From contig AOIR01000063.1 in NCBI GenBank assembly GCA_000337115.1, positions 63,619 through 116,787 on the forward strand: DNA of 53,169 nucleotides, read 5' to 3'. The stretch comes from Natrinema thermotolerans DSM 11552 (GTDB lineage: Archaea; Halobacteriota; Halobacteria; Halobacteriales; Natrialbaceae). Shown here in pieces: positions 2,814-43,120 of this stretch (positions are counted from its first letter, which is position 1; each line of letters starts with the position of its first letter). A program made the position numbers and the translations under genes. The notes under the pieces were generated by a model. The model was given only the letters and a program-made list of their open reading frames with translations, was not told where the DNA came from and searched no databases.

Positions 2814-3455
2814 CTACTGCCCATAGGACGCGAACTGCTCGAGGACCGTCTCGAGTTGCGCGTCCGAGAGCGTCGTCGGCTCGAGGCCGGCCGCGCGGGT
2901 CTGGAGGTACAGGCGCGCGAGGCTCTCGACGTGATGCGTGTTTTCGAGCGCGGTCTCTATGTCCGACGCCGTGACGACGAGGCCGTGGTTTTCGACGAGC
3001 GTCGCGGTCGCCTCGGCCTCGGCCATCGCCCGGACGATGTTCGCTGCGAGTTCGTCGGTACCGTAGGGCGCGTACTCGGCGACCGGGACGCGCTTGCCGA
3101 CCGCGACGATCATGTAGTGGATCGGCGGGAGCGGCTCGTGGGCGACGGCCAGGGTCGTTGCCCACGGCGAGTGGGTGTGGACGATCGCGCCGACGTCCCC
3201 GCGCCGATAGATCGCGGCGTGCATCGGCACCTCGCTGCTCGGGGCCATCGCGCCGTCGCGGACCTCGCCGTTGGTCCCGACGACCGGGACGTCCTCGACG
3301 CCGAAACCATCGTAGGGGACGCCGGTCGGCGTGACCGCGAAGGCGTCGCCGCGCTCGCCGTCGCGAACGCTCAAATTACCCGTTCGCCCGGGCGTCAGTT
3401 CCGCGAGTTCCGGTGCGGACTCGACCACCGCCCGGCGTTCGGGCTCGAGGATCAC
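2814..3455 (-). CDS. Class II aldolase/adducin family protein (FucA-like)
   Basis: A 213-residue zinc-dependent aldolase of the fuculose/ribulose-phosphate class. The GN pair of the phosphate loop is at 26-27 (GNLSVR), the catalytic glutamate is E75 in SSEVPMH, and zinc ligands are H93 and H95 (VHTHSPWA) and H157 (ENHGLV). The reaction expected from the family is cleavage of a ketose-1-phosphate to dihydroxyacetone phosphate and an aldehyde. The upstream HAD phosphatase ends inside this start codon (four-base ATGA overlap), so the two are translationally coupled. The pair would suit a deoxy-sugar-phosphate salvage route such as a DHAP shunt, but that is inference. Confidence 0.85.
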
Positions 3456-4162
3456 AGCACCACCTCCGGCAGGGCCGCGACCGAATCGATCCGATGGTCC
3501 GGTTCTCGGTCGCCCTCGAGCGGCCCGTCGGGGTCGTCACCGTCGGCGCTGAACAGCACCGTCTCGAGGCCGACCGCGTTGGCCCCGACGATATCGGCTT
3601 CGACGTTGTCGCCCACCATCACCGCCTCGGACGGGCGACGATCGAGGCGCGACAGCGCCAGGGTGAACATGACCGAGCCGGGTTTCTCGCGGCCCGTCTC
3701 CTCGGAGGTCACCAGCAGGTCGAGATCGTCACCGAGCCCCACCGCCTCGAGTTTCTCGAGTTGGGTTCGCGCCGTGAAATTCGTGACGATCCCGACGTCG
3801 ACTCCCCGGTCTCGCAACGATTCGAGGGTCGCTTCGACACCCGGAACGAGTTCCATCGCGTCGATGTATGCCGTCCAGTATGCCTCGCCGAGCGCGAGCG
3901 CCTCGGTCGGCTTCGGTCGGCCGGTGTGGCGCTCGAGCGCGCCTTTGAAGTAGAGGTACCGATCGTGAGATGCCGCCGTGCCGGGCACTTCGCGTTTTAT
4001 CGCCCGACGGCCCGTCTGATAGAACGCCTCGAACCCCTCGCGATCGAAGTCGTAGCCCAGTTCCCGCGCGGCCTCTCGAGCGGCGTTTTTCCCTGCTCGA
4101 TTACACGGCGCGTAGGGATAGAACGTGTTGTCGAAGTCGAAAAGGACGGCCTTGGCGCGCAT
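3452..4162 (-). CDS. HAD superfamily hydrolase
   Basis: A 236-residue haloacid dehalogenase-type phosphatase. The nucleophile motif DFDNT has D9 and D11, motif II is VTNFT, the motif III lysine sits in GREKPGS, and the metal-binding motif is VGDN near residue 183. The helical cap between motifs I and II marks subclass C1, like phosphoglycolate and pyrimidine-5'-nucleotidase relatives. It overlaps the downstream aldolase gene by four bases and should be made with it. The substrate is unknown; a small sugar phosphate linked to the aldolase is the simplest idea. Confidence 0.85.
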
Positions 4163-4304
4163 ATCCCATCGTCAATGGGAAGGGAAAAACGAGTACCGGT
4201 ACCTGATACTCTTTCGAAGCGACTCGGCGGAATTACTGTGCCACCACGGTGTGTCGATACTGAAACCGTACCATCGCTCTCGACAGAAAACTACTATTTA
4301 TATT

Positions 4305-4324
4305 ATCTAAATTTAGATTATATA
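4305..4324 (+). promoter_or_regulatory. Promoter with overlapping 14-bp perfect palindrome
   Basis: ATCTAAATTTAGAT (4305-4318) is an exact 14-bp palindrome that runs into the TATA-like ATTATATA (4317-4324), centred about 20 nt before the ATG at 4340. A dimeric regulator bound here would block TBP/TFB, so this is a plausible repressor operator. The regulator is not evident. Confidence 0.5.
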
Positions 4325-4339
4325 ACAATACATCGGACG

Positions 4340-5152
4340 ATGGCTGAGATCGTAGTAGTCCTCCTTCTGATTATTGTATTCATTCCCGTATTTCTGGTCT
4401 TTGCAGTCTATCTTTGCTACCTCGGCGCGCGTGATCTGCAAACGTTTTGGACGATCGTTACCACTACTCCACAATCCATCGACGAAATTACCGCCCAAAG
4501 AGGACCGATCGAAGTGGAAGGAACGGCGATTCCATCGGACGAACACGGAACCGTTACCGGGCTTTTCACCGAAACGGACTGCCTCGTATACACGTACAGC
4601 GCGCAGGGGAGGCCGGGTTCGGGTCCGGACGACGCGCGGCGGTCGGACGACGGGAAATTCGACGTACTCGACGAGGGGACGGAGTACACGAAATTCTACG
4701 TCGAAGACGAAACGGGACGGGTACTCGTCGATCCGGCCGGTGCGACGTTCGAATTGACGCCGGAATCGTACTACAACGCGCCGCTGAGCGATACCCCGAC
4801 GCCGGTCGAGGAGTACATGCAACGGCATCCGGAAACACGACCGCCGGACACGCTGATCCATCCCGTAATATCGCATTTCCTACGGAACCACAATCGATTC
4901 GTCGAACGCCGACTGGATATCGGCGACACGGTCTACATTACAGGCTACAAGCGGACCGATACCGGGTGGGGGACTGATGAGATAATCGTCGATACCGGAC
5001 CGAATGAATCCGAATTTGTCATCTACGACAGATCGAAACGATGGACCGCGATCGAGTACGGCATATACGGGCTTGGAAAAGTGATCGCGAGCCTCATTTT
5101 GGCCATAATGATGTTGATTCTTCTCCATGAAAACCTCCAGTATCTCCTCTGA
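4340..5152 (+). CDS. Membrane protein with GIDE (MUL1-like) domain
   Basis: A 270-residue protein with one N-terminal membrane helix (about 4-28), a large soluble domain and one C-terminal helix (about 243-268). The middle resembles the GIDE/BAM domain first named in the mitochondrial E3 ligase MUL1: a segment reading IEVEGTAIPSDE, then a conserved CLVYTY core, then strand-rich sequence and IGDTVYITGYK. There is no RING finger, so ligase activity is not implied; archaeal and bacterial GIDE proteins have no known function. It is monocistronic behind a strong AT-rich promoter with a palindromic operator candidate. Its base composition is a little lower in GC than its neighbours. Confidence 0.65.
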   Translation: MAEIVVVLLLIIVFIPVFLVFAVYLCYLGARDLQTFWTIVTTTPQSIDEITAQRGPIEVEGTAIPSDEHGTVTGLFTETDCLVYTYSAQGRPGSGPDDARRSDDGKFDVLDEGTEYTKFYVEDETGRVLVDPAGATFELTPESYYNAPLSDTPTPVEEYMQRHPETRPPDTLIHPVISHFLRNHNRFVERRLDIGDTVYITGYKRTDTGWGTDEIIVDTGPNESEFVIYDRSKRWTAIEYGIYGLGKVIASLILAIMMLILLHENLQYLL

Positions 5153-5278
5153 GACGGTGACGTGCTACCGTCCTCTTCGAATTGAAGTCCGGTTTCGTTA
5201 CTCACCACACGACCTGCTCGGTCCCCGTCGTACCGCCACGCGTTGGATTCGAACGACCCCGTCGCGCACCATCACAAC

Positions 5279-5288
5279 GCTTTTACCC
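5279..5288 (+). promoter_or_regulatory. TATA-like box before the thrS leader
   Basis: CGCTTTTACC lies 25-34 nt before position 5313. It predicts a transcript starting about 5308-5313, so that the inverted repeat at 5315-5369 would be the first thing transcribed. Confidence 0.4.
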
Positions 5289-5312
5289 CACTCGAGACTA
5301 CGCGTAGCCACG

Positions 5313-5369
5313 ATGGTAGGTGTCCGTTTTACACGCCGGGCTCATGCCCGCTTCTAACTCACACCTACC
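5313..5369 (+). ncRNA. Structured leader element upstream of thrS with a 14-codon mini-ORF
   Basis: GGTAGGTGT (5315-5323) is exactly complementary to ACACCTACC (5361-5369), and the enclosed CGGGC/GCCCG (5337-5341 with 5346-5350, loop TCAT) makes an inner hairpin. GTGT at 5320-5323 could pair instead with ACAC at 5331-5334, so two folds compete. An ATG at 5313 opens a 14-codon frame (MVGVRFTRRAHARF) ending at 5357, inside the structure. This is a candidate cis-regulatory leader for threonyl-tRNA synthetase. The 111 nt from 5370 to the thrS ATG hold no gene I can support, and 5153-5278 also looks empty. Confidence 0.4.
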
Positions 5370-5480
5370 GTTTGTTGTGTCGGCCGTGATCGACCGACAG
5401 ACGGTGGGATCGGCTCGCCCGTCGACGGACACGCCACCGGCGTTTTCCACGCAGTTACAACACCCACACCAGCTACACCC

Positions 5481-7436
5481 ATGTCAGAATCAGATTCCCA
5501 GTCACAGGAACGGATAACGGTCGTACTGCCCGACGGCTCCGAACTCGAGGTCGACGCCGACGCCACCGTCGAGGATTGTGCGTACGAGATCGGCCCCGGC
5601 CTCGGCAGCGACACCGTCGCCGGCAAGCTCGACGGCGACCTCGTCGCCAAGGAGGAACCGGCCTACGACGGTGCCGAACTCGAGATCATCACCGACGGTA
5701 GCGAGGAGTACCTCGAGGTCATGCGCCACTCGGCGGCCCACTGTCTCGCACAGGCGGTCGAGCGCCTGTACGACGAGGACGCGGTCAAACTCGCGATCGG
5801 CCCGCCGACGGACGAGGGCTTCTACTACGACTTCGACAACCTCGAGATCGACGAGGAGGACCTCGCCGACCTCGAGGCCGAGATCGAGGCGATCATCGAC
5901 GAGGACTACGACATCGAGCGCGAGGTCGTCTCGATCGACGAGGCCGAAGAACGCCTCGCGGGCGAGCCCTACAAGCTCGAGTTGCTCGAGGAATTCGCCG
6001 ACGAGAACGACACCGTCACGTTCTACAAACAGGGCGAGTGGGAGGACCTCTGTGCCGGCCCCCACGTCGACTCGACCGGCGAGATCGGCGTCGTCGAACT
6101 GCTCGAGATCGCCGGGGCCTACTGGCGCGGCGACGAGGACAACACGATGCAGACCCGCATCTACGGGACCGCCTTCGAGGACGAGAGCGACCTCGAGAAC
6201 TTCCTCGAGCGCAAACGGGAGGCGGAAAAGCGCGATCACCGCCGGATCGGCAACGAGATGGATCTCTTCTCGATTCAGGACGTGACCGGCCCCGGACTGC
6301 CGCTGTATCACCCCGCCGGGAAGACCGTCCTCTCGGAACTCGAGGGGTTCGTCAAGGACTTAAACGAGGACGCGGGCTACGACTACGTCGAGACGCCCCA
6401 CGTCTTCAAGACGGACCTCTGGCACCGGTCGGGCCACTACGAGAACTATCAGGACGACATGTTCATCTTCGACGTCGGCGACGACGAGTTCGGTCTGAAG
6501 CCGATGAACTGTCCCGGCCACGCCGCCATCTTCCAAGACCACTCCTGGAGCTACCGGGACCTGCCGATCCGCTACGCCGAGAACGGCAAGGTCTATCGAA
6601 AAGAGCAGCGCGGCGAACTGTCCGGACTCTCGCGGGTCTGGGCGTTCACCATCGACGACGGCCACCTGTTCATCCGGCCCGACCAGATCAGACAGGAGGT
6701 CGAGGAGATCATGGACATGATCACCGACGTCCTCGAGACGTTCGATCTCGACTACGAGATGGCGCTTGCGACCCGTCCCGAGAAGTCCGTCGGCAGCGAC
6801 GAGATCTGGGACCGTGCCGAGGAGCAACTCGAGAACGTCCTCGAGAACCGCGCCCACGACTACGAGATCGAGGAGGGCGACGGCGCGTTCTACGGCCCGA
6901 AGATCGACTTCGCGTTCGAGGACGCCATCGGCCGCTCGTGGGACGGCCCCACGGTCCAACTGGACTTCAACATGCCCGAGCGGTTCGACCTGAACTACGT
7001 CGGCGAGGACAACGAGGAACACCGCCCGGTCATGATCCACCGCGCGCTCTACGGCAGCTACGAGCGGTTCTTCATGATGCTCATCGAGCACTACGAGGGC
7101 CGGTTCCCGCTGTGGCTCGCGCCCGAACAGGTCCGCGTGCTGCCGATCTCCGACGACAACCTCGGCTACGCCCACCGCGTCGCGAACGAGTTCGACGACT
7201 TCCGCGTCGAGGTCGACGGCCGCGACTCCACCCTCGAGCGAAAGATCCGCGCGGCCCACGACGATCGGGTTCCGTACCAGATCATCGTCGGTGACAACGA
7301 GGAGGAAGACGGCAACATCTCGGTGCGGGACCGCTTCGAGGACCAGGAGTACGACGTCGAGATCGAGGAGTTCCGCAGCCATCTCGAGGCCGAACGCGAC
7401 GAGCAGCGGACGGAGCCGGACTTCCTGCAGGGGTAG
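5481..7436 (+). CDS. thrS: Threonyl-tRNA synthetase, bacterial-type architecture
   Basis: Charges tRNA-Thr with threonine. The 651 residues give the full bacterial layout. A TGS domain lies at about 10-70. The N2 editing domain has HSAAH (H83, H87) and CAGPH (C191, H195). The class II catalytic core binds zinc through C344, H395 and H520, and an HGTP anticodon-binding domain lies at about 545-640. Most archaea instead carry a DTD-like N-terminal editing domain, so this lineage holds a bacterial-type enzyme, as inferred from the TGS and N2 motifs. The long gap before it contains an inverted-repeat leader. No strong Shine-Dalgarno is seen before the ATG. Confidence 0.97.
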
Positions 7437-7454
7437 TCGGTCCCGCTATCGGCG

Positions 7455-7883
7455 TCATTCACAGCTGGGGCGGTCTTCCTCGTACGCCATCTCGCCCCTG
7501 CGTTTGTAGGTCAGTTCGATTTCGCGTGGCTCACTCGGTCGTGGCGGGCAATCGGATTTCGGTAAAATAGAGACGGTCCCACTCGCACCGTCGTCAGTTC
7601 GGTACTCGACGGTCCGGACCTCGTTTGGGATCGCTTCCGTGGTGAACGAGTGTCCTTTCGTCCCCTTTCTCCGCTCCTCGTAGAGGACGGTGTCATCCTC
7701 TGCCTTTGCCACCAGTTCGAACGCGGTCGTCTCGTTCTCGTAGTACGTGTTGATGAGTGTAAATCGTACTTCGGTCCGGCGTTCCTCGCTACGGAGTCGA
7801 TCCAAACACCCGGCGGTCGTGGCGAAGGCAACTGTGAAAGCGGTTCCGAGGCAGTTACGGCGGGAGGGTCGCTGCTCAGTCAT
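7455..7883 (-). CDS. Tat-exported lipoprotein of unknown function
   Basis: A 142-residue secreted protein. The N-terminus has a twin-arginine motif (SRRNCLG), a short hydrophobic stretch and a lipobox-like TTAGC, so it should be Tat-exported and lipid-anchored outside the membrane. The mature part is a small beta-rich domain (segments such as RFTLINTYYENETT and PREIELTYKRR). It resembles in plan the 135-residue lipoprotein at 12660-13067. It is convergent with thrS, 18 bp between stops. No enzymatic motif is visible. Confidence 0.7.
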   Translation of the reverse strand: MTEQRPSRRNCLGTAFTVAFATTAGCLDRLRSEERRTEVRFTLINTYYENETTAFELVAKAEDDTVLYEERRKGTKGHSFTTEAIPNEVRTVEYRTDDGASGTVSILPKSDCPPRPSEPREIELTYKRRGEMAYEEDRPSCE

Positions 7884-8241
7884 GGCTAGTAGTGGGCGAC
7901 GCGAATCGATTCCGATCCGTCGTTGCCGGATAACCTTCCAGCCACCTATAAATCTTCTCTGATATCGATACTGAATATTACGGCGACAGTCGACATGTGC
8001 GGCGAGTGTAAACGAGCGACACGAGGCCTCGACGGACGGTTCTGGGACGAATACTGGTGGTTTCGGCCTGGGGACGACGAACTCGGCGAGACGAGTCCAT
8101 CAGCGTTGGTACTCGAGCCCGCCGCGGTCCGCGCGGGTTTCGCGTCGGATCGCCGACGGCTATCGGGGAATCCACAGATGTGGTGATCAGTGACGTCTCC
8201 ACGATCGAAATAGACATATTTGCGGAATCGTGCATAGTAGT
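7884..8241. other. Intergenic region between lipoprotein and gfcR
   Basis: A 358 bp divergent region. It contains CCTATAAATC (7945-7954), which can serve either strand; a possible small gene at 7995-8186; the palindrome CCACAGATGTGG (8172-8183); and an inverted repeat CACGAT/ATCGTG (8200-8205 and 8227-8232) flanking the AT-rich ATAGACATATTT in front of gfcR. Longer open frames on either strand here lack haloarchaeal protein character. Confidence 0.4.
7995..8186 (+). CDS. Possible small protein with one CxxC motif
   Basis: ATG at 7995 opens a 63-codon frame beginning MCGECKRATRGLDG and containing the aromatic cluster RFWDEYWWFRPGDDE. A TATA-like CTATAAAT lies about 40-48 nt upstream. Haloarchaea have many short CxxC zinc-binding proteins, but here there is only one CxxC pair and the C-terminal half is arginine-rich and unconvincing. 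It could be a real small gene or chance. Confidence 0.25.
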   Translation: MCGECKRATRGLDGRFWDEYWWFRPGDDELGETSPSALVLEPAAVRAGFASDRRRLSGNPQMW

Positions 8242-8982
8242 ATGAACAGAGCCGAGAAGGCGGCCCTCCAGTTACGGGCCGTCGACGTGTTGCGCATGTT
8301 GAAAGAGACTCGGACCTACGACGAACTCGCCGAGACGACCGGGCTTCCGGCGGGCGATCTCAACCGCTACGTCAACGGGCACGTTCTCCCCGGAACCGAT
8401 CGCGCGCGCGAGGTCGTCGAGGAACTCGGTCGGGAGGCGCTGGCGGCGGAACTCGACGCGCGAATCGCCGTCGACGACGAGGGGTACGTCGACAACAGCG
8501 CGACCGTCTTCGACCAGCCGTTCCTCGATCTGGCCGCGCCCGTCGTGGCCAACGGGTTCGACTTCGATCGACCGGACGTGGTTCTCACCGCCGCGACTGA
8601 CGGGATCACGCTCGCGGCCGCGCTCGCGAGTTACTACGGGGTCCGCTGTGCCTACGCGAAAAAGAGCAAGGAGACCGCCGTCGAGGAGTTCATCGAGGCC
8701 CGCCAGCGCCTGCAGTCGGGGATCGAACTCACCTACTACCTGCCCGCCTCGGCCATCGATCCCGGCGAGTCGGTGCTGGTCGTCGACGACCTCATCCGTT
8801 CGGGCGAGACGCAGGAACTCCTGTTGGACATCGCTCACACCGCCGAAGCCGACGTCGCCGGCGTTTTCGCGCTCATCGCCGCCGGCGAGGACGGTATCGA
8901 ACGCGCCCGCGGTCGGACCGACGCGCCAGTCGGTGCGCTCACGAGCGTCGCCCCGACGACGGACCGGGTAACGAACGACTGA
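8242..8982 (+). CDS. gfcR: PRTase-fold transcriptional regulator, GfcR type
   Basis: A 246-residue protein with an N-terminal helix-turn-helix region (about 1-60, including YDELAETTGLPAGDLNRYVNG) and a C-terminal type I phosphoribosyltransferase domain whose PRPP loop reads VLVVDDLIRSGETQ. GfcR of Haloferax, which activates semi-phosphorylative Entner-Doudoroff and glycolytic genes, has this same layout. An alternative reading is an adenine phosphoribosyltransferase-like enzyme. ATG at 8242 is preferred because a TATA-like ACATATTT lies about 22-30 nt before it. An inverted repeat around that box could allow autoregulation. Confidence 0.75.
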   Translation: MNRAEKAALQLRAVDVLRMLKETRTYDELAETTGLPAGDLNRYVNGHVLPGTDRAREVVEELGREALAAELDARIAVDDEGYVDNSATVFDQPFLDLAAPVVANGFDFDRPDVVLTAATDGITLAAALASYYGVRCAYAKKSKETAVEEFIEARQRLQSGIELTYYLPASAIDPGESVLVVDDLIRSGETQELLLDIAHTAEADVAGVFALIAAGEDGIERARGRTDAPVGALTSVAPTTDRVTND

Positions 8983-9175
8983 CCGCCCGCCCTGCATTTC
9001 GTCCGTCGACGGAACGAACGCGCAGTGTTCCAGACCGGAAACGTGAAAGCGTTGTTTTCGACGCCGCGTTCGTTAAAACGCCTCGAGAAACCGCCCGAGG
9101 GGAACCGTGTGAACGATTGGCACATTATTAATCATTAGGTTTATGGTGGTCCCTCCAGTTTGTGGTGGTACGCAC

Positions 9176-10966: not shown

Positions 10967-11438
10967 TGTATTCACCCGCGGGCGTTTGCTGGTTCAATCC
11001 CGACCGGGGCCAAGCCCCGCGGATCACATCCCGACCTGTGACACGGCGTCGTGCAGGTGCCCGCTGATGCCCGCGAACCAGCGAGTCTACCCACTCTTCC
11101 CGGCTCTCGAGTATAAGCGCTTCGAACTCCGGGAACGCGGCGTCGAAACGGTGATCATCGCTCGCGGGAGCCTCGCATCGACGACCGATCGCGTGGTGTG
11201 TCCGTCGATGTGAACTCCATGGTGTTGCGAGGGTGAGAAATAATGCACAGGTTCAGTGGGGACTACTCTCCCGTCTGAGGGTTCTCTCGCAACTCTGCTT
11301 GCGAGTGAACTCTGGGTTTCTATCAGAATTCGAAAAATAATTCAGTTATCGCTGTCAACACAGATGATCGTAACATTCATTTTAGCGTGCCTCTGGTAAC
11401 TGCAGTCGATACACGTAAGATCCTGATTGTCTCGGGAT
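10967..11438. other. Spacer between rpl15e and the accessory block
   Basis: No gene is supported over these 472 bases. CGGGGC-CAA-GCCCCG (11005-11019) is a 6-bp hairpin likely in the rpl15e leader. GTATAAGC near 11112 is TATA-like. From 11222 the sequence changes character: the left inverted repeat of the accessory block is at 11222-11253, and CTCGCAA/TTGCGAG (11286-11305) forms a 7-bp hairpin just inside. Base composition then falls sharply toward AT. Confidence 0.45.
11222..11253 (+). repeat. Left imperfect inverted repeat
   Basis: Begins GTGTTGCGAGGGTGAG and ends ATGCACAGGTT (11243-11253). It matches the reverse complement of 13466-13498, which begins ATGTTGTGAAGATGGG and ends with the same ATGCACAGGTT. 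The outer part agrees at scattered positions with about one gap. Confidence 0.5.
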
Positions 11439-12464
11439 TTACCAGTTTAGGTAATCGTATTTATTCATTAGTTCTTCTGGTTCATGATTTGATATTGCTT
11501 GAATTGAGGCATCCCAATCATGAGCAACATAAATCGGAGATTCTTCCTCTTCAAGCACGCTTGCGACGCGTGGATTTTTTCTTTTTATAGCTTCTGCGTT
11601 TTCTGGGTTATACTGTTCAATACCATATTCGGATTCTACATCGGAGGATCCCATTTTGGATAGAGGATGGTCGTCATAAGGGGGTGCTTCTGAGATAACA
11701 GAGAACGAATTTTGAACCGGATATTCTGGATATGCAACAGCGAGATCGGTCACAGTGTGATCTATTTCTTCTCCAGAATCCACTTCAGCAGAGTATTTGT
11801 GATAATATCCAGTGTGGTGTTGATATCCTCCTCCTCTAGGTGCGTCAACATTGTACTTTCTATTCACATTATTTGTGTCCCCAAATTGTTCAAGCATGGA
11901 CATTAAGAATTGAGTAGTCCCATACGCAACTCCTACGTGAGTGTTGAGGGCACCAATTGCTACTCCAATCCCTGATTCAACTGTTTTCAGGTTTTCGTAA
12001 TCAGCAGGGGATTCACCACTACCAATCTTTACACCTGCCCAATTCTCATTATTTTTTGTACCTATATTGTCTATAGATACATCGGATACTTTACACTCGT
12101 GCCACCACATCTCCTCAGCAGGGGAATCGTCGTCGACAAATCGGCAGTCCGTCGTCCCACTTACGCTGATATCAATAGCCCACTGACTAATGCTAGGACG
12201 CCATATTGGCTCATGGACAATTACGCTACTCGAGAGAGTGATCGTAAAATCACCCTCCCCATACACTTGTGGCCCTGTATACGAGTCAACATCATCAAGT
12301 TCTTTTCGCTCCCAAGGGTCAGGGCAACCGTTAGGACAGGCATCGTACTCAGAATCCATATCCGCGATTGCGGATATTGAAAGCGCCGTACTGGACGTAG
12401 ACAGTCCTAAACCACTTATTCCGACTGTTCTCAAGAATTTTCTTCTGGATGATATTCCTTCCAT
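11439..12464 (-). CDS. Tat-secreted protein of unknown function
   Basis: A 341-residue protein with a clear Tat signal, SRRKFLRTVGISGLGLSTS, and no lipobox, so it is probably released or cell-wall associated. Early in the mature part comes a CPNGCPD pair of cysteines, and later histidine- and tyrosine-rich GGGYQHHTGYYHKY. I recognise no family. GC content is far below that of flanking genes, which suggests recent transfer. The start at 12464 is chosen because a minus-strand TTTATATG box lies about 26-34 nt before it; the longer frame from 12488 would begin inside that box. It is divergent from the lipoprotein at 12660. Confidence 0.65.
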   Translation of the reverse strand: MEGISSRRKFLRTVGISGLGLSTSSTALSISAIADMDSEYDACPNGCPDPWERKELDDVDSYTGPQVYGEGDFTITLSSSVIVHEPIWRPSISQWAIDISVSGTTDCRFVDDDSPAEEMWWHECKVSDVSIDNIGTKNNENWAGVKIGSGESPADYENLKTVESGIGVAIGALNTHVGVAYGTTQFLMSMLEQFGDTNNVNRKYNVDAPRGGGYQHHTGYYHKYSAEVDSGEEIDHTVTDLAVAYPEYPVQNSFSVISEAPPYDDHPLSKMGSSDVESEYGIEQYNPENAEAIKRKNPRVASVLEEEESPIYVAHDWDASIQAISNHEPEELMNKYDYLNW

Positions 12465-12659
12465 AGCAGATGATTTACCTATACGCATATAAATCTTACT
12501 TAATTTCTATACAAAATTATATGATAAGGTGGTTTTATACTGATGTTATAATTATATCTATTTGTGTACTAACGAAAATGGTTAAGTAAATCAAGTTCAT
12601 ATAGACTATAATAGCTTCCCAAATATGAAAAACCAATCCCACACTGGAGTAATATAGTA
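12465..12659. promoter_or_regulatory. AT-rich divergent promoter region
   Basis: About 195 bp, much richer in A and T than the rest of the window, with many TATA-like words (TTTATATG on the minus strand near 12491-12498; TTATAATTATAT and ACTATAATAG on the plus strand). It probably drives the Tat-secreted protein leftward and the lipoprotein rightward. Confidence 0.45.
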
Positions 12660-13067
12660 ATGAGACGTCGTACATTTCTGGCTTCGGCTAGTACGTTTAC
12701 GGTCATAGCTACAGCCGGTTGCGTGCTTAGTGAGAACTCATCGCCGACGTTCATTCTTCATAGTGTTCGGTCGTACCAGCCGGATGCAGAGACGATATTC
12801 GTTCTGTCTACAGTTGAACGACAAGGGGACGGCAACGGAGAAGTCACAATTGATGTCGAGCTATTGTTCGAAAACATGCACAACTGGGGCATGGAGCGGA
12901 CATTCAAAGTTCGTGAGAAGGAGAACGATGAACAGACGCTGGCACATGCATTCACAGCCGATTCACCGACTTTCGACCAACCGTTTACCGCGAGAGCTAA
13001 AATCATACGGCTGGACGACGCGGACAGTGACTGGGTCGAGGAAACCGACTACTCACCGTTATCATAA
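12660..13067 (+). CDS. Tat-exported lipoprotein of unknown function
   Basis: A 135-residue lipoprotein beginning MRRRTFLAS, with a short hydrophobic core and lipobox ATAGC at about residues 17-21. The mature domain is strand-rich (EVTIDVELLFENM, FTARAKIIRL) and resembles in size and layout the lipoprotein at 7455-7883, suggesting related folds. Composition is lower in GC than the core genes but higher than its divergent neighbour. The next 70 bases run directly into the transposase remnant. Confidence 0.6.
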   Translation: MRRRTFLASASTFTVIATAGCVLSENSSPTFILHSVRSYQPDAETIFVLSTVERQGDGNGEVTIDVELLFENMHNWGMERTFKVREKENDEQTLAHAFTADSPTFDQPFTARAKIIRLDDADSDWVEETDYSPLS

Positions 13068-17921: not shown

Positions 17922-18383
17922 TCACCACGGAGAGAGCGCCCGCAGTCCGCTGCCGACCAGTCCGCCGACGAGGCCGTCGATGGCAGTCAGCAGCGAGAAG
18001 GCGACGGCGAGTAGGATGACGCTCGGAAGCCCGAGCCCGGAGAGCCCCGGACTGACCGGCCCGACCGAGGAGAGGACGAACAGCGGCGGTTCGGTGTACA
18101 GCCCGGAGAGCGCGCCGAGAAACGCCATGAAGAAGCCTGCGAGGCCACCGACGAGCGCGCTCGCGACAACCGCGTACGCGAGGCCGGTCACGACCCGCCC
18201 GGCGGCGTACGCGGCGATAAATCCCGCGACGATACCGCCCCCGACCCGCGTTAAGACCGGTACCAGAAGCGAGGTAAAGGAAACGAACACCCCGACGGCG
18301 GCGGCTCCGAGGACGATTCGCGAGTCGATCGCTGCCAAGGACGGCGCGTACTCCTCGGCGTCGTTCGTCTCGTGATCGCTCAT
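17922..18383 (-). CDS. Four-helix membrane protein (DUF5518-like)
   Basis: A 153-residue integral membrane protein with an acidic cytoplasmic N-terminus (about 1-18) and four hydrophobic glycine- and alanine-rich helices (about 22-45, 48-68, 70-95 and 120-148). It resembles the haloarchaeal DUF5518 type; function unknown. Its ATG overlaps the stop of the sequon-rich protein by four bases, so it is the last gene of the minus-strand membrane operon. Paired small glycines in each helix suggest close packing or oligomerisation. Confidence 0.65.
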   Translation of the reverse strand: MSDHETNDAEEYAPSLAAIDSRIVLGAAAVGVFVSFTSLLVPVLTRVGGGIVAGFIAAYAAGRVVTGLAYAVVASALVGGLAGFFMAFLGALSGLYTEPPLFVLSSVGPVSPGLSGLGLPSVILLAVAFSLLTAIDGLVGGLVGSGLRALSPW

Positions 18384-19378
18384 GGTTCGCTTTCCCGCTC
18401 GTCACTGACTCCGTCGTCCGTCGATCGATTTCCAGTCCGCGCTGGCGTCTCCGTGTCGTTCTCGTCGGCCTCAGGGGTGGTCGGGGTTGCCGTCTGTTCA
18501 TCGCCGTTCGGACGCTCGCTACCGGACTCGTTCGACGGCAAGTCGCCAGCCGAATCGCTCGTGGTCCCGTCGCTTTCGTTGGTCAGGCCGTCACTTTCGT
18601 TGTCCAGCCCATCGGTCTCGTTCCCTCGAGTTTCGGTTTCGTTGTCTCGGATATCACCGTCGTCGTGGCCGTCGTTTTCATTGTCTCTGCTATCGCTTTC
18701 GTTTCCTCCAGCGTTCTCGGTTCCTTCTCCAACGCTTTCATTTCCTCCAACGCTCTCGTTTCCTCCTCCAACGCTTTCATTTCCTCCAACGCTCTCGTTT
18801 CCTCCTCCAACGCTTTCATTCCCTCCAACGCTCTCGTTGGCCGAACGGTCGGTCTCGTTGCTTCGGCTCTCGGTTTCGTCCTCTCGATCACCACCGTCGT
18901 TCTGCCCACCGATGTCGTGCGGTGGGTCGAACGGGGCGGGTGCGGGGACGTCACGTTCCGGGCCGACCTCGACGGTGTACCCGGTAACGGAGAGGTTTCG
19001 CAACTCGACCGAGCGGGCGTCAACGACGACGTCGGTCTGTTGTGCCGTGAAACACTCATCGGCCGCCGCGAGATCGTTGAGCGCCTCGTTTTGTCGGTCC
19101 GTTCGTAACACGATCTCTCCCTCGGCGGATCGCGTCTCCTCGAGTTCGACGCGTCTGGTTTCGTCGAAGTGAATCGTGACGTTTCCGTCGTCGCCTCGAA
19201 CGACGATCCGGTTGGTGTCCGACGAAAGTTGCTGGACGCAGACGGTCGCGCCCTCGACCGTACCGAGGTCGACGGTGATGGCTTGCTCGTCGGCCTGCCC
19301 GGCCACGTGGGACGGGCCGACCATGACACTACCGAGGGCGACCGCGACCACGACGACGAACGCACCGGCCCGTGTCAT
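18380..19378 (-). CDS. Secreted protein with sequon-rich repeat tail
   Basis: A 332-residue exported protein. The ATG at 19378 places a Sec-type signal right at the N-terminus (MTRAGAFVVVVAVALGSV, cleavage expected after GQA or nearby). An N-terminal strand-rich domain of about 130 residues with two cysteines follows, then a long disordered acidic tail of NES/NET repeats. I count about 15 N-x-S/T sequons in the tail, so it should be heavily N-glycosylated. No membrane anchor is visible at the C-terminus. It lies third in the minus-strand operon, 37 bp after the DUF6114-like gene, and overlaps the next gene by four bases. An in-frame ATG at 19459 would overlap the upstream gene and bury the signal. 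Confidence 0.65.
   Translation of the reverse strand: MTRAGAFVVVVAVALGSVMVGPSHVAGQADEQAITVDLGTVEGATVCVQQLSSDTNRIVVRGDDGNVTIHFDETRRVELEETRSAEGEIVLRTDRQNEALNDLAAADECFTAQQTDVVVDARSVELRNLSVTGYTVEVGPERDVPAPAPFDPPHDIGGQNDGGDREDETESRSNETDRSANESVGGNESVGGGNESVGGNESVGGGNESVGGNESVGEGTENAGGNESDSRDNENDGHDDGDIRDNETETRGNETDGLDNESDGLTNESDGTTSDSAGDLPSNESGSERPNGDEQTATPTTPEADENDTETPARTGNRSTDDGVSDERESEP
18728..18838. repeat. Tandem 39-bp repeat coding for NESVGG units
   Basis: Nearly three copies of a 39-bp unit, starting at 18728, 18767 and 18806. Each is made of an 18-bp and a 21-bp half-unit, encoding alternating NESVGG and NESVGGG on the minus strand. The copies are almost identical at DNA level (TTTCATT alternating with CTCTCGTT), which points to recent expansion, and copy number probably varies between strains. 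Confidence 0.85.
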
Positions 19379-19415
19379 GCGTCGTGGCGGTCCCTCGGTC
19401 GGGTTCGTCTCGTCG

Positions 19416-20003
19416 TCACTCGTCGGTACCCCACCGTTTGATTCGGTCGATGCCCGCACGGCAACTCAGGAGTAGCCGTCCGACGAGGCGACCGAACCCC
19501 GCGTCGATCCGGGCCGCCGCCTTGTCGACGACGCTCGGCTCCGAGACGGCGTCGTCGACGACTTCGTCGCGTGGCTTCCAGGCGAGACAGAGGTTCCCGC
19601 CTAGAATCCCAAGCAGCATGCCAACCAGCAACCCGCCGAGGGATCCAAACAGCGAGAAGATCGACAGGACGGTCCCGACGACGCCGGCGACGTCGGCGTG
19701 TGCCGGCTTGACCAGCACGTAGATCCCCGTCAGAAAGACGAACACGCCGAAGAGGGCACCGATCGCGAGAAAGCCCGCCATCTGCCCGCCGATAAAGGCG
19801 AGATCCGGCAGGATCTGCATCGGCACCCAGGTGATCAGGACCCCGGCCAGACACAGCAAGAGCCCACCGAGGAACGGCCGTCCGGCCCGCCAGGTGTTGA
19901 ACCGGCCCCATCTGGTCCCGCTCCACTGGCTGACCCTGCTCCACCGGCTTCTGACCCGTGCGGGAAGCGTATCGGTCTCGTCCTGCTCGTTTTCGGGCGA
20001 CAT
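19416..20003 (-). CDS. Membrane protein resembling DUF6114
   Basis: A 195-residue membrane protein: charged N-terminus (about 1-40), the segment RAGRPFLGGLLLCLAGVLI, three further hydrophobic helices and a charged C-terminal tail. The RPF-x-GG-LLL-AG opening resembles actinobacterial DUF6114 proteins, which sit next to DUF6230 genes there. The same pairing occurs here, with the DUF6230-like gene six bases upstream. Function is unknown in every lineage I know of; the pairing implies a complex between an exported protein and this membrane partner. Confidence 0.55.
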   Translation of the reverse strand: MSPENEQDETDTLPARVRSRWSRVSQWSGTRWGRFNTWRAGRPFLGGLLLCLAGVLITWVPMQILPDLAFIGGQMAGFLAIGALFGVFVFLTGIYVLVKPAHADVAGVVGTVLSIFSLFGSLGGLLVGMLLGILGGNLCLAWKPRDEVVDDAVSEPSVVDKAAARIDAGFGRLVGRLLLSCRAGIDRIKRWGTDE

Positions 20004-20009
20004 GGGTGA

Positions 20010-20621
20010 TCACCCGTCGGGGTGGTACTCCACGTCGACGTCGAGACCGGGGAGTGAGATCTCGTTCGAGGCGAGATACACCGCTTCCATCTCGACGTCT
20101 TCCTGCACCATTCCGGGCTGTTCCCCGGAGATGTTCGTGAGGTAGCCGTCCTCGGGATCGGCGTTACCACCGGCCGTCTGCTGGAACTGCTGTTCCGGGT
20201 TGTCGGTCGCCTGTGCGTTGACGACCTGTCCGTTGAATTTCGCCTCTTCTGCCTTCAGGTCGGTGAGTTTGATGTACTGCTCGTCCGCTTTGACCGTCCC
20301 GTCGGCGGCGAAGGAAATCTCCATCGAACCGTCGATCATGGGTATCGACTTCTCCCCGCTCAGTACCATGCCGTCGATCTCGACGCCGCGCTGTTCGACG
20401 ACGGCGACCGGCGTCGTCCCCTCGGTGTCCTCCCCGATGCTGGGATAGAGGAGGAAGTCGTCCGATCTGATCTCGTCGGCCGTGACCGTAAAGCCGCTGC
20501 CACTGGCGGTAGCCATCGCCGTCGCGTAGGCCGTCCCCGACGAGAGGACGACGAGACCGACCAGGGCGACGACCAGGAACGACGCGACGGTCCCGGTCGC
20601 GAGTCGCTTTCGGCGGTACAT
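20010..20621 (-). CDS. Exported protein resembling DUF6230
   Basis: A 203-residue protein with an N-terminal signal or anchor helix (about 12-35, ending near AYATAMATASG) and a strand-rich extracellular domain that opens GFTVTADEIRSDDFLLYP. It has the plan of the actinobacterial DUF6230 family that neighbours DUF6114. GGAGGTGGGTGTAGT lies directly before the ATG at 20621, a strong Shine-Dalgarno. A TAG one base before this ATG closes a possible small upstream ORF. It is the first long gene of the membrane operon. Confidence 0.55.
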   Translation of the reverse strand: MYRRKRLATGTVASFLVVALVGLVVLSSGTAYATAMATASGSGFTVTADEIRSDDFLLYPSIGEDTEGTTPVAVVEQRGVEIDGMVLSGEKSIPMIDGSMEISFAADGTVKADEQYIKLTDLKAEEAKFNGQVVNAQATDNPEQQFQQTAGGNADPEDGYLTNISGEQPGMVQEDVEMEAVYLASNEISLPGLDVDVEYHPDG

Positions 20622-20622
20622 A

Positions 20623-20751
20623 CTACACCCACCTCCGAACGATCGGTTCGGCGGCTTTCGTTCTATTCGCTGCTCCCACACCGTTTCCGCTCCGATATCG
20701 CGGCCTCATTTCGAACGTCACAAGTCCACACCCAACACGATGTCCAATCAT
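20623..20751 (-). CDS. Possible 42-residue leader ORF
   Basis: ATG at 20751 is preceded by AAGGAGGAAAA, a near-perfect Shine-Dalgarno, and by a minus-strand TTATAAAT box at about 20776-20784. The frame begins MIGHRVGCGLVTFEMRPRYR, runs 42 codons and stops at TAG one base before the DUF6230-like ATG. The arrangement would couple translation of the two. The peptide is arginine-rich rather than acidic, so it may act in cis rather than as a protein, or be chance. Confidence 0.35.
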   Translation of the reverse strand: MIGHRVGCGLVTFEMRPRYRSGNGVGAANRTKAAEPIVRRWV

Positions 20752-21156
20752 TTTTCCTCCTTGGATGCGGGGGCATTTATAACCAATTCGGAGAAAATAT
20801 TATAGCAACGATGGATGTCTGCCGGCCGGGACGTATCGAACCATCGTCGTCCCGAACCGGCATAAAAGACCGTGGAAACGCGGGAAAACGTCTACTCGAG
20901 CGTACCGCTCGTATCGGAGCATGCGACCGAAACGGACTGGAATCGACGAACGCAACGACACCTGCTCCGAGTTCGACCCCGACTCTCGTAACCCCCGAAG
21001 CGGTGTCGGTCGTCGCGAAGCCGTTGTCAGTGGTCATACCGCCGGCGCGGTGGCTGTGACGGTCACGTCGGGGCTCGGCTCGAGACCGTCCCACCGAACT
21101 TCTATACTAACAATCGATACTGAAAAATACCTGTACGATGTCGTGACTGTCGAACG
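20752..21156. other. Divergent control region, no convincing gene
   Basis: ATTTATAACC (20774-20783) reads as a TATA box on both strands, and ATATTATAG (20797-20805) is a second box for the plus strand. An 82-codon plus frame from 20811 starts only about 10 nt after that box and is serine/threonine/proline-rich without haloarchaeal acidity, so I do not call it. TTCTATACTAAC (21099-21110) and ATACTGAAAAATACC probably serve the regulator at 21157. Confidence 0.4.
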
Positions 21157-21807
21157 ATGAGATACGCGAAATGTGTTATCATTCCCGATGAGGAGGGATT
21201 GCATCCGCTCGATCGACGGATCGCCGAACACCCGGACGTGACGCGTGAACTACTCCACAACGTCAACCTCCTCGTCGACGAGACGATCGTCGCGCTCTAT
21301 CAGTTCTCGGGCGACAGAAACGCTCTCGAGTCGATCCTGTCGGCGTCGTCGATGGTCAATCAGCACCAGCTCTCGAGCGCCGACGGCGAACACCACGCCT
21401 ACATCCACCTCGAGGCCGACGACCGGCTCGTCGGGCTGTTGAGCATGCTCAGGGAGTTCGAGTTCATCTACGATACCCCCCTCGAGTTCACGCGCCGTGG
21501 CGGCCTCCGGGTCACGATGATCGGTGACGTACAGAGCTTCCAGAAGGCCGTTCCGGACGTTCCCGACGGGATCAGGCTCAAACTCCTCAAGACCGGCCGG
21601 TACGAACCGAACACGGACCGGCTGTTCTCCCAGTTGACCGGTCGCCAGCAGGAGATTCTGCGGACCGCCGTCGAGATGGGGTACTACGACGTTCCGCGGG
21701 CGGTGACTCACGAGGACATCGGCGAGGCGCTTGGCTGTACCGGGGGGACGGTCGGCGGCCACCTGCGACGGATCGAGGCGACGCTGCTTACCCAGATCGT
21801 CCCCTGA
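21157..21807 (+). CDS. HTH-10 (Bat-type) transcriptional regulator
   Basis: A 216-residue regulator. The N-terminal 150 residues form a strand-rich sensor region of the haloarchaeal bacterio-opsin-activator type, and the C-terminal HTH_10 domain begins LTGRQQEILRTAVEMGYYDVPR and ends with GCTGGTVGGHLRRIEATLL. Such proteins usually act on nearby genes. The ABC exporter starts 109 bp downstream on the same strand and the membrane operon lies divergently upstream, so either is a candidate target. Confidence 0.85.
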   Translation: MRYAKCVIIPDEEGLHPLDRRIAEHPDVTRELLHNVNLLVDETIVALYQFSGDRNALESILSASSMVNQHQLSSADGEHHAYIHLEADDRLVGLLSMLREFEFIYDTPLEFTRRGGLRVTMIGDVQSFQKAVPDVPDGIRLKLLKTGRYEPNTDRLFSQLTGRQQEILRTAVEMGYYDVPRAVTHEDIGEALGCTGGTVGGHLRRIEATLLTQIVP

Positions 21808-21916
21808 TGCGGTCGCGGGCGGTGTAAACGGTGAAACGTCCATCGTGACAGTCCGGCTCGAGTGGCGACTAGACTGACCGTCATATTACATAGGGATGGC
21901 TGCCGAGGGTGCCGGT

Positions 21917-22882
21917 ATGGCAGCAATCAAACTCGAGGGGCTCACGAAAGATTACGGCGAGGTACTCGCCAACGACGACGTGACGTTTTCGGTCGAGGAA
22001 GGGGAGGTTTTCGGGTATCTCGGCCCTAACGGCGCGGGGAAAACGACGACCATCCGAACGCTACTCGGACTACTCTCACCGACCGCGGGGACGGCTCGGT
22101 TACTCGGCAACGATGTGACCGACGAGGCGCAACTGCTCGCGGCCAAACGCCGACTCGGCTACCTCCCCGATGATCCGGGGTTCGACGAGACGGCGACCGG
22201 CCGGGCGGTCCTCGACCTCCACGCATCGCTCAAGGGCGACGAGCGAAGCGCGGAGTTGCTCGAGCTGTTCGATCCGCCGCTCGATCGCGAAATCAGGGAG
22301 TACTCGCGCGGCAACGTCCAGAAACTGGGGCTGGTAACGACGTTCATGCACGATCCCGACCTGGTGATTCTAGACGAGCCGACCAGCGGGCTCGATCCCC
22401 TCCTCCAACAGCGGTTCAACGAGTTCGTCCGGGCCGAACGGGAGCGCGGACTGACGGTGTTTTTCTCCTCGCACATCCTGAGCGAGGTGCGGAAGCTGTG
22501 CGACCGCGTCGGCATCATCCGTGACGGCCGGCTCGTCACGGTCGAGCCGGTGGAATCGCTGCTGGACAGGAGCGGCAAGTTCGTCCGGTTGCACGCCGCG
22601 GAGTCGATCCCGGTCGACGCCCTCGAGATCGACGGGGTCCACGGCATCGAGTCCGACACGGGGCCGAGCGACGGGACCGAATACGCGTTCACGTTCACCG
22701 GCGATGTCAACGACCTGCTCGCGGCCCTCCAGGAGTACCGACTGCACGACCTGTCGATCGAGGAAGCACCGCTCGACGAGGTTTTCATGCGGTTCTACGA
22801 CGATACCGACGGGAGCGAACGGAACGGGGCGGATCTGACCGTCGGGCCCGGTGCGGCGAGTGGGGGTGAAGACGATGTTTGA
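21917..22882 (+). CDS. ABC transporter ATP-binding protein, ABC-2 type
   Basis: A 321-residue ATPase subunit. Walker A GPNGAGKTTT, signature YSRGNVQKLG (a variant of LSGGQ), Walker B DLVILDEPTSGLD and the switch histidine in FFSSHILSE are all present. The roughly 90-residue C-terminal extension is usual in exporters of this CcmA/NatA-like class. A TATA-like ATATTACA at about 21883-21890 places the message start near the ATG at 21917; an earlier ATG at 21896 lies too close to that box. The permease gene overlaps its end by eight bases, making a two-gene exporter of unknown substrate. Confidence 0.9.
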   Translation: MAAIKLEGLTKDYGEVLANDDVTFSVEEGEVFGYLGPNGAGKTTTIRTLLGLLSPTAGTARLLGNDVTDEAQLLAAKRRLGYLPDDPGFDETATGRAVLDLHASLKGDERSAELLELFDPPLDREIREYSRGNVQKLGLVTTFMHDPDLVILDEPTSGLDPLLQQRFNEFVRAERERGLTVFFSSHILSEVRKLCDRVGIIRDGRLVTVEPVESLLDRSGKFVRLHAAESIPVDALEIDGVHGIESDTGPSDGTEYAFTFTGDVNDLLAALQEYRLHDLSIEEAPLDEVFMRFYDDTDGSERNGADLTVGPGAASGGEDDV

Positions 22883-23660
22883 ACTGACTGCCTACGACGG
22901 CCGCCGGCGGGTCCGGGGCAGCGTGTATCTCTCGATCGGGCTCTCCTTGCTCGCCGCGATGGTCATCTGGGTCTACCCCTCCTTCGAGGCCGAAATCGAC
23001 CTCGAGGGGCTGCTGGCGGCCTATCCCGAGCCGATCCTGCAGGTGATGGGGGTCCAGACGATGACGAGCCTGGCGGGCTTTCTCTCGTTCGAACTCTACA
23101 CCTTCGGCTGGATCATCATGCTGGGGCTGTATCTGGCCTACAGCACTGCGGGGACGATCGCCGACGACGTCGACCGCGGGCGAATGGACGTGTTATTGTC
23201 GATGCCGATCTCCCGACGGCGACTGGTCGCCGAGCGGTTCGGGGCGATGGCCGTCCCGATCGTCGGTGCTAACCTCCTCCCGCCGCTTGTCGTCTACGTC
23301 GGTGCCGAACTGATCGACCATCCGATCGCCGCCGCCGACGTCCTCGCGGTCCACCTGCTCTCGATCCCGTATCTGTTCGCCTGCGCCGGGATCGGCCTGT
23401 TCGCGTCCGTGATCGTCGACCGGGCGGCGATCGCCCAGCGGGTCGCGCTGGGCGTGACCTTCGCGCTCTTTCTCTCCGAATCGTTGCTGTCGGGGACCGA
23501 CGCCGAGGCCGTCGGCGCGATCGCACCGATGCGGTACTACGATCCCAACGCCGTCCTGCTCGAGGGGAGCTACGACCTCATCGGCGCGGGGATCTTGGTG
23601 GCGATGACCGTCACGTTGCTGGTCGCGAGCCAGGCCTGGTTCCGCCGGCGCGACGTCTGA
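22875..23660 (+). CDS. ABC-2 type transporter permease
   Basis: A 261-residue membrane subunit with about six helices, matching the ABC-2 permease pattern: an N-terminal helix after DGRRRVRGS, a second near FELYTFGWIIMLGLYLAY, and the cytoplasmic loop DDVDRGRMDVLLSMPISRRR that contacts the ATPase. ATG 22875 follows a GGGGGTGA Shine-Dalgarno and overlaps the end of the ATPase gene, indicating coupled translation. The cargo is unknown. Confidence 0.88.
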   Translation: MFELTAYDGRRRVRGSVYLSIGLSLLAAMVIWVYPSFEAEIDLEGLLAAYPEPILQVMGVQTMTSLAGFLSFELYTFGWIIMLGLYLAYSTAGTIADDVDRGRMDVLLSMPISRRRLVAERFGAMAVPIVGANLLPPLVVYVGAELIDHPIAAADVLAVHLLSIPYLFACAGIGLFASVIVDRAAIAQRVALGVTFALFLSESLLSGTDAEAVGAIAPMRYYDPNAVLLEGSYDLIGAGILVAMTVTLLVASQAWFRRRDV

Positions 23661-23769
23661 GGCGCGGTCATCGCTCTGGGTTCGAGTCGGGCCTCGAGCG
23701 CGACGCGCGGCTCCGCGCGCCCACAACGCCTTCGCTGCCCTATTCCGTGCCGGGGCCCAAGACCACACG

Positions 23770-24768
23770 ATGTCACAGGAGTGGCTGCAGCGCCACCAGA
23801 TCGCCGTCTACGCGGTCGCGGTGGCGGCTGCCGTCGGGATCGGGCTGGGCCAGCCGGCGTCGGCGTCGGTCTTCCAGCGACTCATCACGCCAGTGCTGGC
23901 GGTGTTGCTCTACGCGACCTTCCTCGAGATCCCCTTCGTCCGGTTTCGCGCGGCGATCACCAACGGCCGGTTCATGGCCGGGGCGCTCGTGTTGAACTTC
24001 CTCGTCGTCCCGATCGTCGTCTACGGACTCACCCGGTTCCTCCCGAACGAGCCCGTCGTTCTGGTCGGCGCGTTCATGGTGTTGTTGACGCCGTGTATCG
24101 ACTACGTGATCGCGTTCACCGACCTCGCCGAGGGTGACGCCGAGCAACTCACTGCCGCGACGCCGGCCCTGATGCTCCTGCAACTGCTGTTTCTGCCCGC
24201 GTACCTCTGGCTGTTCATGGGCGAGCGGATCGCGGCCGTCGTCGAGCCCGGCCCCTTCCTCGAGGCGTTTCTCCTGTTGATCGTGCTGCCGCTGGCGCTG
24301 GCGTGGGTCACCGAGATCGGGGCGACCCGCTCGCCGACCGCCCGCCGCTGGCAGTCGGCGATGGGGTGGCTGCCGGTCCCGATGATGGGCGCGACCCTGT
24401 TGGTCGTGATCGCCTCGCAGCTCCCGCGGGTACGGGACTCGATCGAGGGGATCGCGGCCGTCGTACCCGTTTACGTCGCCTTTCTGGTCGTCATGCCGCT
24501 TCTCGGCCGGCTCGCGGCCGGGCTGCTCCGGCTGGACACCGGCGCGAGCCGTGCGCTCGTCTTCACCGCCGTTACCCGGAACTCGCTGGTCGTTCTGCCG
24601 CTGGCGCTTGCCCTTCCGGCGAGGTACGAACTGGCACCGGCGGTCGTCGTCACCCAGACGCTCGTCGAACTGGCCGGGATGGTCGTCCTCACCCGCGTCG
24701 TGCCCGCGTGGCTCGTGCCCGACACCCCGGATCCGATCCCCGTCCCCGGCGTCACGCCCGAGGAGTGA
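23770..24768 (+). CDS. Acr3/bile acid:sodium symporter-like transporter
   Basis: A 332-residue transporter with ten predicted helices of the BART superfamily. The segment VLLTPCIDYVIAFTDLAEGD matches the arsenite-efflux Acr3 group, with the conserved cysteine of helix 4, and AVTRNSLVVLPLALALP matches helix 9. Acr3 exports arsenite; close relatives with other substrates exist, so arsenic resistance is likely but not certain. No arsenate reductase or ArsR gene is adjacent. A Bat-type regulator lies convergently downstream. Confidence 0.75.
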   Translation: MSQEWLQRHQIAVYAVAVAAAVGIGLGQPASASVFQRLITPVLAVLLYATFLEIPFVRFRAAITNGRFMAGALVLNFLVVPIVVYGLTRFLPNEPVVLVGAFMVLLTPCIDYVIAFTDLAEGDAEQLTAATPALMLLQLLFLPAYLWLFMGERIAAVVEPGPFLEAFLLLIVLPLALAWVTEIGATRSPTARRWQSAMGWLPVPMMGATLLVVIASQLPRVRDSIEGIAAVVPVYVAFLVVMPLLGRLAAGLLRLDTGASRALVFTAVTRNSLVVLPLALALPARYELAPAVVVTQTLVELAGMVVLTRVVPAWLVPDTPDPIPVPGVTPEE

Positions 24769-42919: not shown

Positions 42920-43120
42920 AGCGACAGTCCCGCGGCTTCCTTTTTGAACGTCCGCCCGCTCCGTCTCGCCGTTCTCGAGTCGGTTTCGGTCGCTCGCTCA
43001 GTGCTGCCGGATCCGCGTATCATCTGTCGGTCCGTCACGGGCTGGTGTTACCTCTCGGAAATCACAGTCCGGATAGAAGATAAAGATTTTACAGTATGGG
43101 TTTAATTTTGAGATTATACT

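Follow-up and report, generated by a model that had tools for sequence, protein, structure and literature searches.

A DUF6230–DUF6114 gene set with a co-inherited regulator in haloarchaea, probably a cell-envelope system with counterparts in Bacillota and Actinomycetota

In a 53,169-nucleotide stretch of the genome of the haloarchaeon Natrinema thermotolerans DSM 11552 (contig AOIR01000063.1, positions 63,619 to 116,787; hereafter the window), four consecutive open reading frames (ORFs) were found on the minus strand between positions 17922 and 20621. They are referred to here as genes A, B, C and D. The set is faced by a divergent regulator gene, and a conserved block lies upstream of A. The features were as follows, in coordinates of the window (aa, amino acids; TM, transmembrane):

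20010..20621, minus strand: gene A, DUF6230 family, 203 aa, predicted N-terminal hydrophobic helix followed by a beta-rich ectodomain
19416..20003, minus strand: gene B, DUF6114 membrane protein, 195 aa, 3–4 TM segments predicted from the PF19609 match and hydrophobicity
18380..19378, minus strand: gene C, predicted exported protein, 332 aa, with a signal peptide, a head of about 120 aa and a low-complexity tail of Asn sequons
18694..18838, minus strand: tandem repeat of a 39-bp unit, 3.7 copies, coding for the NESVGG-type repeats of the C tail
17922..18383, minus strand: gene D, 153 aa, four predicted TM segments, weakly DUF5518-like
20714..20782, minus strand: conserved promoter/leader block, a TATA box followed by CCCCGTATACAAGGAGGAAAAATGATT..A.ATCGTGTTGGGTGTG..CTTGTGAC
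21157..21807, plus strand: divergent regulator with HVO_0513_N and HTH_10 domains (PF24278, 148.1 bits; PF04967, 54.8 bits)

The locus had been singled out in an original prediction, made by a model from the sequence, as a closely packed four-gene operon. Four real and tightly spaced genes were indeed present: six bases separate the stop codon of A from the start of B, and the stop of C and the start of D share four bases (ATGA). For C, an alternative GTG start at 19459 would give a 44-base overlap with B, whereas the ATG at 19378 leaves a gap of 37 bases; the conserved signal peptide begins at this ATG, which gives the 332-aa protein listed above. The likeliest start of A was the ATG at 20621, with the Shine-Dalgarno sequence GGAGGTG in front of it. 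The operon had been drawn further, to position 20751; the ATG there is not in the reading frame of A. A small ORF beginning at 20751 was considered as a leader peptide and rejected as coding, because some relatives carry in-frame stops or lack the ATG; the DNA around it was conserved among relatives despite the non-conserved reading frame.

Two of the proteins belonged to Pfam families without a functional name. A matched DUF6230 (PF19741) with 51 bits over profile positions 1–139 of 145, above the gathering cut-off of 27.5 bits, and B matched DUF6114 (PF19609) with 87.3 bits over positions 1–106 of the 106-position domain, above the cut-off of 27.9 bits. The resemblances to these two families that had been proposed from the letters alone were thus confirmed. 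The hydrophobic segment of A (residues 7–25) lies ahead of the DUF6230 domain, while B carries the conserved motifs RPFxGG ... GGxLCxAW. The predicted topology fits a location of the module at the cell surface.

C had a single N-terminal hydrophobic segment and no match in Pfam. Its head contained two invariant Cys, also present in Haloglomus. The tail of the window protein held 15 N-X-S/T sequons, compared with 4.1 ± 1.7 in composition-preserving shuffles (none of 1000 reached 15), in agreement with the sequon-rich secreted protein that had been predicted, and glycosylation of this tail is possible. It is not a general feature of C, because other genera have different, even sequon-free tails. 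The Haloglomus tail was Thr/Pro-rich and without sequons, and in other genera the tails were strongly periodic, with units of 11 residues such as NDTVDHTEETV; this period was detected in 10 of 18 haloarchaeal C proteins and in 8 of 23 third proteins of the Bacillales loci described below. In L046 and L047, both close relatives, the repeat encoded by the 39-bp units had fewer copies. The sequon-rich tail of C is a local variant.

D had four hydrophobic segments, as expected of the four-helix protein in the original prediction; the DUF5518 likeness that had been proposed stayed below threshold. DUF5518 (PF17647) was the top match for several D orthologs and was covered over nearly its full domain length, but no ortholog reached the 27-bit gathering cut-off (the best had 17.6 bits, E 0.004), and the D protein of the window had no Pfam match. 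Among the groups examined, D was found only in Natrialbaceae. In Halopiger djelfimassiliensis (L054, 7133–7894), D was missing and the end of C resembled the last residues of D (LVGSGLRALRPQ), which suggests an internal deletion fusing the two genes.

The distribution of the set was surveyed in 125 Natrialbaceae genomes from 29 genera. DUF6114 occurred in 26 of them (21%), spread over six genera. All 26 also encoded DUF6230, B followed A in every one of the 26 main loci, and D was present in 25 of the genomes. C lay between B and D in 19 loci; in the other seven, the gap between B and D was a few hundred bases or less. The family-wide order was therefore a divergent HTH_10 regulator, A, B, an optional C and D, with recurring housekeeping genes downstream of the operon in most loci. 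Gene order was conserved well beyond the genome of the window, both in these 26 genomes and in other groups (see below).

The regulator was inherited with the operon. Both its HVO_0513_N and its HTH_10 domain exceeded the Pfam cut-offs, and its ortholog (at least 73% identity) occurred in precisely those 26 genomes that have DUF6114. It was absent from the other 99 Natrialbaceae genomes, including 11 genomes of the same genera that lacked the operon. The gene adjoined A in 25 of the 26 loci, across six genera; in the remaining genome (G056) it was located approximately 485 kb away and was still retained, which makes the evidence stronger than simple linkage, with the caveat that related genomes are not independent. 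This strict co-inheritance suggests a conditional system. The block at 20714–20782 was conserved across 25 aligned upstream regions, from Natrinema to Natrialba and Natronococcus. The core pattern of the block lay upstream of A in five of eight genomes searched, and elsewhere once (with 2 to 3 mismatches) in three. The block could be an operator for the regulator or an RNA leader of A–D. No paper on HVO_0513 was found in the literature searched. Beyond the regulator, the closest relatives shared genes for an ABC transporter ATPase and permease (21896–24768 in the window, plus strand), and several other genomes had instead a methyltransferase-like gene between the regulator and A.

A second DUF6230 gene (A') was present in 11 genomes, six of which also had a second DUF6114 gene. 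These second A'-B' loci (L057, L058, L059, L061, L062 and L063, around 7200–9060) were diverged, and all six that were read had an HVO_0513/HTH_10 regulator of their own. All seven genomes without C carried A', and four of the six A' proteins read contained 5 to 12 sequons, mostly in the tail. These two features together suggest that A' may replace C where C is missing, a pattern seen in few lineages. In other haloarchaea, DUF6114 was found in further contexts. G430 and Halorientalis salina (G501) carried DUF6114 genes in arrays, a fusion of DUF6114 with an exported domain, and PKD repeats on DUF6230-like domains; in the arrays at L082 (7635–12233) and L145 (4878–11485), DUF6114 genes stood with DUF6230-like genes and some of the DUF6230-like domains were followed by PKD repeats. 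Loci with such a fusion, in two haloarchaea, were L081 and L149. At L083 (7589–9595) and L147 (3348–5390), again in two haloarchaea, DUF6114 formed the C-terminal part of a protein of about 670 aa built of repeated multi-TM units.

Side-by-side A and B genes were found in Halobacteriota, Bacillota and Actinomycetota. The original prediction had likened the two proteins to a pair known from actinobacteria and had proposed a sharing between two distant groups; the sharing was confirmed, and the number of phyla was three rather than two. The actinomycete sample consisted of Nonomuraea and Embleya records, with Streptomyces proper outside the survey. In both Nonomuraea (L119; DUF6230 130 bits, DUF6114 103 bits) and Embleya (L139), A directly preceded B on the same strand. 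In Embleya, DUF6114 carried a fused second segment, which is probably exported. Profile comparison gave no support for a DUF6230-like nature of this segment or of the exported domain in the L081 and L149 fusions. The haloarchaeal set differs from the actinomycete pair in having separate C and D genes and its own regulator.

The DUF6230 profile matched 37 of 299 Bacillales genomes (12%). Of 30 Bacillales loci, 29 had B immediately after A, and in 24 B was followed by a third gene; its product is exported and combines a DUF6230-like head with a long tail. In profile comparisons, this third protein matched A at 98.6% without signal peptides and at 99.5% with a deeper profile, whereas reversed or column-shuffled controls reached at most 0.4%. 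Of 18 wide loci, 14 had a divergent GAF-LuxR regulator beside the module; apart from A, B, the third gene and this regulator, nothing was widely conserved in the 18. The Bacillales module shares with the haloarchaeal set the gene order, the two core families, an exported third gene often with an 11-residue tail period, and a divergent regulator; it differs in the DUF6230-like head of the third protein and in having no D gene. C and D had been regarded as haloarchaeal additions to the pair. For D this stands. Since an exported, long-tailed third gene is usual in Bacillales, proteins of the C type would seem to be a regular component of the module. In one Bacillota clade (L148), DUF6114 was N-terminal to a full AMP-binding enzyme of the acyl-CoA ligase type, beside an ABC1/UbiB-type kinase (2826–5444 and 5472–7268, both minus strand), and at L141 an ABC1 kinase followed A-B-C. 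In a tree of DUF6114 domains, the haloarchaeal rows grouped together in 76% of bootstraps, with a short alignment and long branches. Archaeal and bacterial rows were held largely apart, so recent transfer between the domains of life is not indicated.

Structures were predicted for DUF6230 with AlphaFold. The first model, of the A protein of the window and built on a shallow alignment, had a predicted local distance difference test score (pLDDT) of 70 and gave no structural match. A homologue from Marininema (Bacillota), modelled with 47 diverse homologues, reached a pLDDT of 90.5 and a predicted template modelling score of 0.75; one alignment for folding left out two rows, Nonomuraea and Embleya. 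This model showed a single N-terminal helix (residues 5–29) followed by beta strands of up to 21 residues. Structure comparison covered the PDB and viral models and returned no usable match (Foldseek, best E 0.16 in the PDB and 0.02 in viral models; VIA Z 3.2 at a root-mean-square deviation of 8.1 over 64 residues), nor did a sequence search of the PDB. The predicted extracellular beta domain of DUF6230 is possibly a new fold, although a missing match in the PDB and viral models is no proof of novelty.

Taken together, the A–D set probably represents an undescribed cell-envelope system. Our preferred reading, to which we assign a probability of about 0.4, is a self-contained envelope module made of an anchored beta ectodomain, a 4-TM partner, a stalk protein and its own regulator. 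Just as tentatively, the DUF6230–DUF6114 pair with a stalked third protein would form an undescribed envelope cassette across both domains of life, with possibly a new beta fold, separately recruited regulators and similar 11-residue stalks. The dedicated divergent regulator would act on the promoter with the conserved leader block and switch on A-B-C-D. A would be tethered by its N-terminal helix, with the long-stranded beta domain outside the membrane, and B, with its 3–4 TM segments, would be its membrane partner. C may be secreted or loosely held, with the small head in the assembly and the long acidic repeat tail passing through the surface layer (S-layer) or wall, and D would be a later 4-TM addition in Natrialbaceae. 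Judging from topology and gene fusions, A and B would contact each other at the membrane; the beta domain would face outwards, and C would be an elongated partner. The undescribed surface complex of the original prediction thus remains plausible and would be wider than claimed. Its surface location agrees with the predicted topology, while for a physical A-B-C complex the gene fusions and strict co-inheritance offer indirect support.

The likeliest role of such a module would be to sense or buffer envelope damage, similar to stress modules that combine membrane and beta domains, such as LiaI-LiaF-TM/Toastrack. In those systems, a small 4-TM module lies beside or is fused to a beta-rich domain, with an adjacent transcription regulator; they are mainly bacterial, with transfers to Euryarchaeota, and Toastrack is predicted to be intracellular (PMC11237479). 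The A-B locus has the same ingredients, a 4-TM protein, a beta-rich domain and an adjacent regulator, but DUF6230 is predicted to be extracellular and Pfam similarity is lacking. Neither a two-component system nor PspA was seen at the locus. Envelope stress as the trigger is speculative and rather doubtful.

Several observations weigh against the envelope module as we describe it. A, B and their homologues had no Pfam match to Toastrack (DUF4097/2154/2807), LiaI-LiaF-TM or PspC, even with E limits of 1 to 10. C is not essential to the Natrialbaceae set, being missing from 7 of 26 loci. The haloarchaeal C and the Bacillales third protein are alike in position and export, and in the tail period in other genera, but their heads compared at only 1–3%. 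A reading of C as a DUF6230 paralogue, which had reached 51% against the Bacillota third protein with signal peptides included, was rejected: without these the value dropped to about 2%, and no homology of the head was detectable. The regulators belong to different families, HTH_10 in archaea and GAF-LuxR in Bacillota, and point to no common signal. Finally, the fusion of DUF6114 with an acyl-CoA ligase-type enzyme in one clade points to lipids.

This last observation is the best specific lead that any of the rival explanations has. In a lipid-handling module, the DUF6230 ectodomain would hold or pass lipids or other hydrophobic molecules outside the cell, and DUF6114 would feed or receive them in the membrane. 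Besides the enzyme fusion with its neighbouring kinase at L148 and the ABC1 kinase at L141, the very long beta strands of the DUF6230 model would suit such a role; strands of this kind occur in known lipid-groove proteins. However, the enzyme link is limited to one clade, no lipid gene was conserved nearby in the 18 Bacillales loci, and Foldseek returned no trustworthy LptA-, LolA- or AsmA-like match; we regard lipid handling as unlikely. Adhesion or surface display, with A and C as exposed heads on stalks for attachment between cells or to surfaces, draws on the tails of C: they are long, repetitive and variable, with sequons or the 11-residue period, the tandem repeat differs among close strains, and PKD repeats occur on DUF6230-like domains in two haloarchaea. 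No known adhesin or pilin domain was present, though, the heads are conserved and not the tails alone, and a 4-TM partner with a dedicated regulator is unusual for simple adhesins; this explanation is quite unlikely.

A factor that builds or reshapes the cell wall or S-layer during a growth phase or sporulation would fit the presence of the module in actinomycetes and Marininema, known for mycelium or spores, and also in archaea with an S-layer. One Streptomyces DUF6230 gene is given in a list as a moderately expressed constitutive promoter (PMC12835213). On the other hand, only 12% of Bacillales and 21% of Natrialbaceae genomes carry the module, non-sporulating archaea are among the carriers, and no wall or sporulation gene was conserved adjacent to it; we consider a wall, S-layer or differentiation role improbable.

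No function of DUF6230 or DUF6114 was described in the open literature searched; the single mention found of either family was incidental, that of DUF6230 in a promoter list of Streptomyces albulus (PMC12835213). Leads to a Streptomyces 'cholesterol esterase' gave no tie to DUF6230, and the hyphal haloarchaeon Actinarchaeum, looked at for a connection with Streptomyces-like life cycles, was set aside, as no mention of such genes was found in its paper with the terms used. The regulated A-B-C arrangement, the co-inheritance of the regulator and the third protein of Bacillales appear undescribed in this literature. Two widespread families named without a function, DUF6230 and DUF6114, seem to form a co-inherited, regulated cassette in two domains of life, and the regulator, the leader block and the minimal A-B-C set offer a concrete entry point in tractable haloarchaea or Bacillales. 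If a new DUF6230 fold and a role in envelope protection or sensing were true, this would be one more system shared by cells whose membranes and walls differ greatly. Elsewhere in the window, two stretches had a low GC content, at about 11000–13000 (0.46) and 43000–46000 (0.50) compared with about 0.65, and are possibly foreign DNA.

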